From a virus, in IMG/VR virus record IMGVR_UViG_3300008221_000026, positions 1 through 26,369 of that record: a DNA stretch of 26,369 nucleotides, one strand, 5' to 3'. Position numbers and translations under genes: made by a program. Position 1 is the first letter of the stretch, and each line of letters begins with the position of its first letter. Under the pieces are notes generated by a model. The model had not been told where the DNA came from. It worked only from the letters and a program-made list of their open reading frames with translations, and made no database searches. Shown piece after piece: positions 7,556 through 11,435 of this stretch.

Positions 7556-8419
7556 TTAATAAATTGAGTAAAAATTATTTATTTCTGTTTGCTTTTCTGA
7601 ATAGTCTGTTGTGTTTTCAAAAATAACTAACTCTTGGAAGGTATACATTCCAAACCCGACAGGGTTTGACGATTTAAATCCTAACCCTATAACATTATTA
7701 TCAAAGTTGTAATTAGCGTTTACCGAAAGCAAAAATTGATTATCCGTTTTGGTAAACATTTCTCCCCTTGTAATTGTACTAGATATTGTTTGATTGTTTA
7801 CTTTTGAATTAGTTACAGTGACCTTACCCCCTGCCCCTAACGAAGCCGCAGAATTTCCCGATTGAGCCAAGTAGAATTGATCGCCGCCGCCTGTGTTACT
7901 TCCCAGAATTGCGCTTTTATTCCCGTTGTTATACCCAACATAATAAACACCCTTAACCGTAGCTCCATCATTAGGAGCGTATGCGGACAAATACCCTCCG
8001 TCATCGTTTGCACTTCTTTCAATGCAAGGCTTGTCGTTAAGATTAATAATACTTCCGCTGTTAGCTATTTTGCCTTGAAGATTAGCCGTTGCTTGAACCA
8101 TATTGTTAGAACCGCTTTGGTCATAAATAACGGTTACAAATCCGTCTCCGCTACCCACAAAAGAAAGTAAAGAAACTGTATCTAATTCATTATTAACAAA
8201 TCCAATATCTTGTTCTGTGTTGTCTGCTCTACGTACTCGAATTGCTGAACCTGTGTAAGCAGTTCTTAATCTTCTAAGCGAGAACGCTGCTGCTGCGTTA
8301 GGGTAAGCATCTAATAATCCAGTAAATGAATTCCAAACCAAATTAGTTCCTAAGTAAACTTTAGAAACTTGATTGTTTCCAATCTTACAATTAGCAATGT
8401 CGTTAGTTCCTATCTTCAT
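7556..8419 (-). CDS. Receptor-binding tail protein with arabinofuranosidase B-like beta-sandwich
   Basis: The 287-residue protein starts with a short tail-anchor-like segment (MKIGTNDIANCKIGNNQ, then VYLGTNLVW, residues 1-29) of a kind common to Bacteroidota phage tail proteins. From about residue 43 it shows the catalytic-sandwich pattern of GH54 alpha-L-arabinofuranosidase B: LRRLRTAYTG, IRVRRADNTEQDIGF, then VIYDQSGSNN near 98-106. The fold is lectin-like; in phages it usually acts as a carbohydrate-binding head. I cannot confirm the catalytic residues, so binding is safer than cleavage. It is coupled to the fibre gene by TAATG, which suggests that it forms the fibre tip and determines host range. 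Confidence 0.7.
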   Translation of the reverse strand: MKIGTNDIANCKIGNNQVSKVYLGTNLVWNSFTGLLDAYPNAAAAFSLRRLRTAYTGSAIRVRRADNTEQDIGFVNNELDTVSLLSFVGSGDGFVTVIYDQSGSNNMVQATANLQGKIANSGSIINLNDKPCIERSANDDGGYLSAYAPNDGATVKGVYYVGYNNGNKSAILGSNTGGGDQFYLAQSGNSAASLGAGGKVTVTNSKVNNQTISSTITRGEMFTKTDNQFLLSVNANYNFDNNVIGLGFKSSNPVGFGMYTFQELVIFENTTDYSEKQTEINNFYSIY

Positions 8420-9171
8420 TATACTATAAAGTAAATGGTTGTTGCAACAGGTGTTAAAGCATCATACTCTGCTTGTGTTACACTTGCCAAAGAGTTAATA
8501 GTGTAAGTTGACCCTACACTTTTGTCTATTTTATTTCCAATACTTGTAAGATTAGTTGCCACCCCCGAAGAATTGGTTGCAATGTTAGTTGTATTAGTTG
8601 CAATACTAACGCCATTAGCAGCTATGTCTGTCACGTTACCACTTATACCAGTTACGTTAGTGGCTATATTAGTTGAGTTTGTTGCAATGTTCGTTGTGTT
8701 GTTCCCTACATTAGTTGTGTTTGTTCCAATATTGGTTGTGTTCGTTGCAATGTTAGTAACATTAGTCGCAACCCCTGAAGTGTTAGTTGCAATATTTGTA
8801 GAGTTAGTTGCAATACTCGTGGTGTTAGTTCCAATACTTGTAAGATTTGAAGACACCCCCGAAGCGTTAGTTCCAATACTTGACAGGTTGGCTGATATTC
8901 CTGTTGAATTTGTTGAAATGTTACTTTGATTAGTTGCAACTGCTGATGTGTTAGTTCCAATATTGGTAACATTAGTTGCAATATTCGTGTCTGCTGTTGA
9001 AAGCCCTGTTGATAAAGTAGAAATGTCTACCTTATTAGTGTTAATCTCTCCTGCGTGTTGGTTGACTACCGTCTTAACTTCGTTGGCATCTTGAAATCGG
9101 TACTTTTTAACAACAGGTAAAGCGTTAGCCAATCCCTGTTCTTTGTCTGTGTATGTAATTAAATCTGCCAT
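8419..9171 (-). CDS. Heptad-repeat tail fibre stalk protein
   Basis: The 250-residue protein has a short N-terminal attachment region (1-40) and then about 22 uninterrupted 7-residue repeats (residues 64-217) of the form [I/V]-x-x-N-[T/S/V]-x-x, such as IATNTTN and IGTNTTN. Ile or Val fills the a position and Asn the d position of every heptad. This is the pattern known from trimeric autotransporter stalks, where d-position Asn residues bind anions inside a trimeric coiled coil. The C-terminal 26 residues (with VTQAEYDAL and IYFIV) form a small beta cap of a type frequent at the ends of phage fibres. It should be a trimeric rod holding the receptor-binding protein encoded next. Confidence 0.75.
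   Translation of the reverse strand: MADLITYTDKEQGLANALPVVKKYRFQDANEVKTVVNQHAGEINTNKVDISTLSTGLSTADTNIATNVTNIGTNTSAVATNQSNISTNSTGISANLSSIGTNASGVSSNLTSIGTNTTSIATNSTNIATNTSGVATNVTNIATNTTNIGTNTTNVGNNTTNIATNSTNIATNVTGISGNVTDIAANGVSIATNTTNIATNSSGVATNLTSIGNKIDKSVGSTYTINSLASVTQAEYDALTPVATTIYFIV
8521..8982 (-). repeat. 21-bp tandem repeats coding the fibre heptads
   Basis: About 22 degenerate direct copies of a 21-bp unit lie head to tail inside the fibre gene; each encodes one heptad with the core ATNACN or GTNACN. Copies differ at many third positions, so the protein pattern is better conserved than the DNA. Unequal recombination between copies could lengthen or shorten the fibre in 7-residue steps. 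The several long open frames on both strands here are artefacts of the repeat. Confidence 0.85.
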
Positions 9172-9173
9172 TT

Positions 9174-9719
9174 TTAAATATCGTAAACTTTATTTGTAGA
9201 ATAGGTAGTGCCTTGACTTGTGTATACTTTGCTTGTGTTGGAAGGAACGTAGTTGGGTGTGCTGTTTATCAATTCAGGAAAACTTGAATAGTTAGTTGTT
9301 AAATATCTCTTTACTTGATTTTCATAAAACACCATTGATGCTTCTGCTGCTCTTTGCATACTTGATAATTGCCCATCATCAATACTCGACACCTCATCTG
9401 TGTCTCCTACGCTAATTGTAGCTGCTCCTATCTTGTATAACATCCTTGGCAATGCCATTACGTAGGTTTGCCATATTACCATCTTTAAAACGCTTGCTTT
9501 GTCTGAGTCGTATAATTCTTGGTACTTTGCATCTAATGTTCCACCATTATAATCATTCTTCAGCTTAATCATTAACGCTGTCCCTAAAACGTTTTGAGCT
9601 GCCAAATCCGTAGATTGAATAATTGCAGGAGTTAATATTTCAGCTGTGAAACTTTCGCTTGATGCAGTGTAAAATCTGAAGTCATCAACACCAATTAGTA
9701 AAGGAATAGTTATTGCCAT
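9174..9719 (-). CDS. DUF6712-type virion protein, possible connector
   Basis: The 181-residue protein matches the pattern of DUF6712 proteins from Bacteroidota phages: a helical N-terminal region beginning IPLLIGVDDFRFYTAS, an aromatic middle (VIWQTYVMALPRM near 80-92), and a Ser/Thr/Tyr-rich C-terminus. The helical arrangement with an early conserved Asp recalls head-tail connector proteins of the gp6/gp15 class. It lies between the portal-fusion gene and the fibre gene, 6 bp from the portal stop, which supports a connector role. Family is fairly likely; role is inferred. Confidence 0.6.
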   Translation of the reverse strand: MAITIPLLIGVDDFRFYTASSESFTAEILTPAIIQSTDLAAQNVLGTALMIKLKNDYNGGTLDAKYQELYDSDKASVLKMVIWQTYVMALPRMLYKIGAATISVGDTDEVSSIDDGQLSSMQRAAEASMVFYENQVKRYLTTNYSSFPELINSTPNYVPSNTSKVYTSQGTTYSTNKVYDI

Positions 9720-9725
9720 GTCTTT

Positions 9726-11435
9726 TTATTTTGGGTAAGCTCCGTTCAGGGGCATATCTTTAGGTGCTTTCTTTGCATCTCGGTAAGCTGATCCTGTTGG
9801 TTTCTTTTTGCTTGGGATATTCTTTACAATTTTACCTCTCGAAATATAAAGTTCAGTTTTTGACTTCATCCGGTAAAGTTCTTCTTGCCAATAGTGTCCA
9901 CATTGAACACCGCCTTTATACCTAAAAAGTGAGTAGTTTTGACCGTTATGACCAAAATTATTATTCACTCCTTGCTCTGATGCTGTATCAATATCTTCCT
10001 TTCTATACACAACACCTCTTCCTGTTCTGCTCATCATTTTTGAGCAAAACTTTCTACTGTTTGCCGAAGCATATTTTTGTTGATAACTGTAACGAATTTT
10101 ATAATAGTCTTTGTCTAAGTTGCTCTCTTTGTTAGGTCTTGAAGTAACAAAGTCTTTTAACTTTTCGATGGTTGTTAAGTTCTGCTTGATTAAGCTATTA
10201 GCCCAATCTTCTGTACTTTCTCCATTCTCTTCTCTAACATCTACTAACTCCCATTCATCCAAGTCTATTGCTTCGCCAACTTCTAAAGCGTCTAACATTG
10301 ATTGGTCATCAAAGTCTTTCTCTTCTTTTACTTTCTCTAAAGTAATTGCGTTGCTTAAATCTTCATCAGTTACAACTGTCTCTTCTGCTACTTCTCTAAA
10401 TGATACGTTCTCAATTTCTAATTCTGCAAATATTGGTTGTAGGATCTCTAGTAATTGTTGTCTTCTTGGTTCTATAATCTTAACCCTCATTCGCTCCGTA
10501 GCATAAGCAAGCTCTTCCGTTTCACTTGTAAAACCTGCACCCTTAGAATTAAGTCCACTAATCAAGTTTGCCGATGGTATTCTAAAGGCTTTTAATATTC
10601 CAATCTCAGAGGTTGCGTGTTGTCCTTCGTAAACTTTGTCAATTCCTGTCATGTTAGGAGTTGAGAAAGTAGGAGCGTTTCCACCTTCCCTGTAATAAGT
10701 AGTAATTACCTTACCTGCATTTGCCGCTCCTGTCGTTTGGGCTTGTGTTTCAATTGCATCTCTTCGGTCCGTCTCAGCGTCTCCGCTTGATTCTTTACTA
10801 ACAACCATTGAAGGGAACATCCCCTGCTGCGCTCCATGGTTATGCATCATGTATATTGCAATCTCTAGTTCAATTGCATCTGTTGCACTAAGGTATCTGG
10901 GGCGACCGTAAGGAGTGTTAAACGTTCCACTATCATAATAGTACAAAAGGCTTTTTTCGTCCTCGTTATTGTAGCTGTTTATGTAAGAATTGCTGTACTT
11001 ATAAAGTGAGCTTGTGGGATTCCAATCTTCTCTGTAAGCGAATTGGTCGGGTGTTCCGTCATTTAAATGAGTGACTCTAAAGTGAGCAACATTGATATTC
11101 TCAACTGCTGTGATATTCTTTAATGGGTTTCTTCTAATCTCAATCGAAACGCTTTCTTGAGAGATTAGCCCGGTAGCCATAGCCGTAACACTTTTCTTTT
11201 TAAAAAACTCTTTAAGCCTTGCCGCTTGTTCTTTGTCGGGACAGGTTAAACCCATAGCGACAACATCTTGCGCAATGTCATCAATTATACACTGAAGGGT
11301 AGGAGAGTTATTAGAAAGACTATTAAGATAATTGCTGAATAAATTATCGTATGCGTTTGGGTAGAATGTCCCTGACTTCCTTTGTCCTTGGACTGCATTA
11401 GTTTTGTATCTTGAAAGTTGTATCTTGTCAATCAT
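9726..11435 (-). CDS. Portal protein with C-terminal Cys/His domain fusion
   Basis: Residues about 1-345 fit a phage portal: an N-terminal wing with NNSPTLQCIIDDIAQDV near 43-59, a middle beta region, and the stem/crown pattern with FRIPSANLISGLNSKGAGF, a run of glutamates and IIEPRRQQLLEILQPIF. Portals form the dodecameric ring through which DNA enters and leaves the head. After an acidic linker (about 355-445), residues 448-520 form a separate domain with SRKFCSKMM (Cys464) and YKGGVQCGHYW (Cys512, His514), probably metal-binding and known as a module in Bacteroidota phage head proteins. The C-terminal 50 residues are basic. The ATG overlaps the upstream stop as ATGA. Portal call is strong; the tail domain's function is unknown. 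Confidence 0.75.
   Translation of the reverse strand: MIDKIQLSRYKTNAVQGQRKSGTFYPNAYDNLFSNYLNSLSNNSPTLQCIIDDIAQDVVAMGLTCPDKEQAARLKEFFKKKSVTAMATGLISQESVSIEIRRNPLKNITAVENINVAHFRVTHLNDGTPDQFAYREDWNPTSSLYKYSNSYINSYNNEDEKSLLYYYDSGTFNTPYGRPRYLSATDAIELEIAIYMMHNHGAQQGMFPSMVVSKESSGDAETDRRDAIETQAQTTGAANAGKVITTYYREGGNAPTFSTPNMTGIDKVYEGQHATSEIGILKAFRIPSANLISGLNSKGAGFTSETEELAYATERMRVKIIEPRRQQLLEILQPIFAELEIENVSFREVAEETVVTDEDLSNAITLEKVKEEKDFDDQSMLDALEVGEAIDLDEWELVDVREENGESTEDWANSLIKQNLTTIEKLKDFVTSRPNKESNLDKDYYKIRYSYQQKYASANSRKFCSKMMSRTGRGVVYRKEDIDTASEQGVNNNFGHNGQNYSLFRYKGGVQCGHYWQEELYRMKSKTELYISRGKIVKNIPSKKKPTGSAYRDAKKAPKDMPLNGAYPK

Follow-up and report, generated by a model that had tools for sequence, protein, structure and literature searches.

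The window analysed in this work, the whole stretch of 26,369 nucleotides of the IMG/VR virus record IMGVR_UViG_3300008221_000026 (positions 1 to 26,369), contains a gene for a 250-residue protein that we interpret as a phage fibre. It lies downstream of genes for a portal protein and a DUF6712 protein and directly upstream of the gene at 7556..8419. The features of the locus are as follows, with the evidence in brackets.

7556..8419, minus strand: receptor-binding candidate, 287 aa, with an arabinofuranosidase-B-like body (tblastn, alignment, PF09206 in homologues)
8419..9171, minus strand: fibre gene, 250 aa (open reading frame and the syntenic homologues L134-L140 and L144)
8422..8490, minus strand: C-terminal tip of the fibre, PF24243 Phage_tail_C, aa 228-250 (Pfam)
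8521..8541, minus strand: last heptad, IGNKIDK, with Lys at d (a junction that is conserved and reads NRIEKN in most relatives)
8542..8982, minus strand: 21 consecutive [I/V]xxN heptads with Asn at d, aa 64-210 (register count, SadA match)
8983..9087, minus strand: first stretch of the helix (aa 29-63), in which Asn at d is not regular (AlphaFold2 (AF2) helix 29-218)
9088..9171, minus strand: N-terminal part, aa 1-28, presumed virion anchor (alignment of nine homologues)
9174..9719, minus strand: PF20459 DUF6712 protein, directly upstream of the fibre gene (Pfam)
9726..11435, minus strand: portal protein (phrog_33693, E 6e-29; Nonlabens phage portal)

The central part of the fibre protein is a run of exactly 21 strict [I/V]xxN heptads, in register and uninterrupted (aa 64-210, window 8982..8542). 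Position d is Asn in all 21, and position a is Ile in 16 and Val in 5. Position e, following the Asn, holds Thr in 7 heptads, Val in 4, Ser in 4, Leu in 3 and other residues in 3, and position f holds Thr or Ser in 20 of the 21. The first-pass annotation of this DNA had described about 22 heptads in which Asn is followed by Thr or Ser. The run is real and its Asn invariant, but the 22nd heptad (8541..8521) has Lys at d, and Thr or Ser follows the Asn in just 11 of 21 cases. The best-register count over the whole protein is 22, which adds an INTN at aa 43, outside the run. Composition-preserving shuffles of the protein (n = 5000) reached a maximum of 8 heptads, with a mean of 2.4. The 21 Asn codons are mixed (12 AAC and 9 AAT), and the DNA copies of the heptad share a mean identity of 57% (24% to 90%), which indicates that Asn is held at the protein level and is not merely the product of fresh tandem duplication. 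Tandem Repeats Finder reported 21- and 42-bp arrays in the stalk DNA, periods that fit growth and shrinkage of the stalk by gain and loss of units.

The two ends of the protein point to a virion component. The N-terminal part carries a conserved NALPxxKK motif followed by ANEhKxVVN in the alignment of nine homologues, and the AF2 model places two strands there at low confidence (E4-9 and E20-25); attachment to the virion would take place through aa 1-28. The tip scores 31.5 bits against the Phage_tail_C profile, for a gathering cut-off of 23.7, and residues 24-64 match PHROG 17481, a minor tail protein. Both matches bear out the original designation of a phage fibre stalk, and the names 'minor tail' and 'minor head' both occur among the PHROG matches of the fibre family. 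What the window fibre has in common with Phage_tail_C proteins is the C-terminal 23 residues, which are kept in its homologues; the Pfam family is silent on the stalk.

With the N-terminal 64 residues of the fibre as query, neither viral contigs nor phage records yielded a relative. A tblastn search with the whole fibre against phage records gave a single match, in Ruegeria phage Tedan; masking of the repeat by the low-complexity filter is the probable cause. Syntenic relatives were found through the upstream DUF6712 protein, seven of them in viral contigs (L134-L140) and one in a Vicingaceae (Flavobacteriia) assembly (L144). In 8 of 8 relatives with a complete gene the fibre occupies the same gene position, and conservation covers ~45 residues at its N-terminal end and ~35 at its C-terminal end, the PF24243 tip included. 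These fibres of related uncultured Bacteroidota phages thus have their gene position, N-terminal anchor, Asn-at-d stalk and C-terminal tip in common with the window fibre. They differ from it by a knob of ~180 residues, which either splits the stalk in two or separates it from the tip, with 6-21 heptads before the knob and 0-10 after it, whereas the window fibre has a single uninterrupted stalk and no knob. For one homologue with a knob (L140), AF2 modelled the knob poorly, at a pLDDT of about 30-55.

The host of the phage is most likely a member of the Bacteroidota, since L144 lies in a Vicingaceae assembly and the portal protein has distant relatives in Nonlabens phages; the fibre gene of one such distant phage, P12024S, has no stalk of this kind. 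Among the relatives of the downstream gene detected by tblastn are phage genes annotated as alpha-L-arabinofuranosidase, as minor tail protein or as virion structural protein. The first ~30 residues of its product (MKIGTNDIANCKIGNNQVSKVYLGTNLVW) are constant across the relatives, while the body differs in several of them, some being PF09206-like and others unrelated.

AF2, run on an alignment of nine sequences, predicted one helix from aa 29 to 218, with pLDDT values by block of 77-97 in the stalk, mostly 95-97, and low confidence in the tip. At 1.5 A per residue the 190-residue helix would be ~28 nm long and the Asn tract, if helical, ~22 nm. A beta-helix, the fold that the earlier annotation had set against a coiled coil, is absent from this model and hence disfavoured for the stalk. 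The model is that of one chain, so that the oligomeric state lies beyond its reach. A Foldseek search with it gave no significant match, as expected for a lone helix.

The best matches among solved structures by sequence were SadA 2wpr (E 8e-5), UspA1 2qih (2e-4) and SadA 2wpq (5e-4), and a profile of the nine fibres recovered the same three at 7e-6 to 9e-5; these matches are short and lie within low-complexity sequence. They agree with the likeness to trimeric autotransporter stalks noticed at the outset, and together with published work on SadA and GCN4 they make trimerisation of the fibre and binding of anions in the stalk core well-motivated proposals. From autotransporter stalks, layers of Asn at d are known to coordinate a central anion in a coiled coil of three chains (PMC4786415), and a second paper discusses trimers with Asn triads that bind anions (PMC12933892). 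In stalks of this type the Thr next to the Asn belongs to the ring around the ion; in the window fibre Thr stands there in 7 of 21 heptads, and the lack of Thr or Ser in about half of them weighs against an Asn-core trimer of this kind. The stability of engineered GCN4 trimers falls with each Asn layer (PMC12933892), so that 21 layers would need stabilisation from outside the stalk.

The frequency of such stalks among viruses was surveyed by scanning viral contigs with a degenerate DNA pattern that encodes the [I/V]xxN heptad eight times in succession. At least 120 stretches matched, and translation gave 122 loci with an open run of 8 or more among the matches listed. Some of these runs lie in short open reading frames resembling non-coding repeats, but the majority consist of plain Asn/Thr/Ser heptads within open reading frames that are hundreds of residues long. 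The number of viral contigs with at least 8 Asn-at-d heptads in a row is about 100 or more. A control scan with Asp at d matched 45 stretches, against the at least 120 for Asn, a ratio that is only suggestive because many of the Asp matches and some of the Asn matches lie in short open reading frames and resemble tandem repeats of non-coding DNA. Runs of 20 or more heptads were found in 27 stretches of viral contigs, the longest among the matches listed having 39 (L038). In autotransporters the longest run, a figure going back to Hartmann and colleagues in 2009, is reportedly 19 heptads. Pfam and PHROG searches on 82 of the motif proteins revealed many different fibre contexts, among them tail fibre repeats, the S74 chaperone, the T7 tail fibre N-terminus, T4 gp9/10 and Phage_tail_C; a YadA anchor was present in 2 of the 82. 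With so many viral contigs carrying such runs on unrelated phage fibre anchors, the stalk of the window is an ordinary one among phages, and the emphasis first laid on its length and regularity was overstated.

The analysis directly shows the repeat, its conservation at the protein level, the predicted helix, the conserved ends, the variable stalk length in relatives and the lack of autotransporter parts. Our preferred reading is that the protein is probably a virion fibre with an anchored N-terminus, a trimeric coiled-coil stalk with 21 Asn-at-d layers, a trimer-closing tip and a docked receptor-binding protein. Residues 1-28 would most likely anchor the fibre to the particle, and residues 29-218 would form one continuous helix. 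Three such helices would pack in parallel into a coiled coil whose core has Asn at d in 21 successive layers. The 23-residue tip would most likely close the trimer and present a separate receptor-binding protein, the product of 7556..8419, which may dock on it through its constant first 30 residues while its body changes between phages. The Asn layers of the core probably bind anions or water and could serve both as a register key and as a solubility device. Single chains would remain soluble until three of them are gathered by the domains at the two ends, after which Ile or Val at a and Asn at d would lock one register. The stalk itself would be a spacer of adjustable length, changing by heptads. 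Given that each layer weakens the GCN4 trimer, we infer that the large number of Asn layers probably helps to control folding, and that trimerisation is started by the ends.

A different origin, the capture of the stalk from a bacterial trimeric autotransporter, had been raised in the first-pass annotation as shared ancestry with host adhesins, and the motif is indeed that of SadA (2wpq/2wpr/2wps) and UspA1 (2qih), whose stalks are made of [I/V]xxN heptads, often with Thr after the Asn. In the window fibre, Thr or Ser takes that place in those 11 heptads only. The fibre also differs from these adhesins in having no outer-membrane anchor or secretion signal, being a virion protein made inside the infected cell: it gave no Pfam match at E<=1 to the YadA anchor (PF03895), YadA_head or YadA_stalk, and its start (MADLITYTDKEQGLAN...), read by eye, has no hydrophobic stretch of the kind found in secretion signals. 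Among 295 genomes of the class of L144, the only relative linked to a host and thus the likely host class, none had a YadA anchor, while the E. coli control was positive; this part of the evidence makes it unlikely that the stalk was captured recently from an adhesin in the current host group. Matches to the Asn-heptad DNA pattern in the same 295 genomes were mostly simple repeats, the clear exceptions seen being the phage region of L144 and one protein in another genome (L203). The motif-bearing viral contigs do include proteins with YadA_anchor, YadA_head or YadA_stalk domains, so that exchange within a wider phage pool is possible; the motif is however found on many unrelated phage anchors. 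Taken together, capture from an autotransporter is improbable. For the origin of the stalk, both exchange among phages and independent origin remain, and a motif of only seven residues does not allow shared ancestry to be told from independent origin.

Three further proteins were encountered in these searches. Ruegeria phage Tedan, a cultured phage, encodes a protein (L193:2674-3516; MT764845.1, 36328-37170) that is annotated only as hypothetical and combines a signal-peptide-like stretch with an Asn-at-d stalk and, by eye, a short YadA-like barrel at its C-terminus that has no Pfam match; it is perhaps a phage-encoded trimeric autotransporter. A second protein, on a viral contig (L026:7566-8672), has a start resembling a signal peptide, a run of 20 Asn-at-d heptads and a YadA_anchor match that exceeds the cut-off; this autotransporter may be prophage cargo or host flank. 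The protein of L203 has an Asn-at-d stalk followed by repeats that look YadA-head-like by eye.

It is very unlikely that the repeat is intrinsically disordered, or helical only on binding, and acts as a flexible Thr/Ser/Asn-rich linker from anchor to tip. The composition, rich in Asn, Thr, Ser and Gly with few charges, would suit a linker, as would the destabilising effect of Asn-at-d layers in designed trimers (PMC12933892), but AF2 predicts a continuous helix with a pLDDT of up to 97, and sequences with the same motif in SadA have been solved as trimeric coiled coils. Moreover, a linker would have no use for a heptad register that holds strictly, with Ile or Val at a, through all 21 repeats and is preserved in relatives whose stalks differ in length. 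Highly improbable is the proposal that the repeat is mainly a result of DNA slippage, a 21-bp tandem repeat that reads as heptads by chance with its Asn unconstrained: the 21- and 42-bp arrays and the variable stalk length among relatives are in line with slippage, which could alter the number of units, but leaves unexplained why copies so divergent in DNA sequence keep Ile or Val at a and Asn at d, the latter through both Asn codons.

The Asn-at-d stalk motif is already known, and the window fibre adds a member to those that carry it together with an implication for the purpose of the layers. For autotransporters, the proposed role of the Asn-at-d layers is to maintain the passenger in a soluble, export-competent state (Hartmann et al. 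2009, as relayed in PMC6173795). Phage fibres do not pass through a membrane by that route, and no sign of export is seen in the window fibre, so that another reason must apply at least here; long Asn-at-d runs in phage fibres challenge the explanation by passage through the outer membrane that was derived from bacterial adhesins. It is plausible, and we suggest it tentatively, that Asn at d is a general building block of phage fibres, placed on unrelated anchors and selected for controlled in-register trimer assembly and not for competence for outer-membrane export. Phage fibres, which are assembled inside the cell, provide a natural test of the export explanation and make the purpose of the layers directly testable. 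Natural stalks of graded length, from 6 to 39 heptads, also offer a gauge of how many polar layers a trimer tolerates.

A further uncultured viral contig (IMGVR_UViG_3300031608_000095) contains a fibre-like open reading frame of 2539 aa (L003:2470-10089) with 104 in-register [ILV]xxN heptads, distributed over several blocks.
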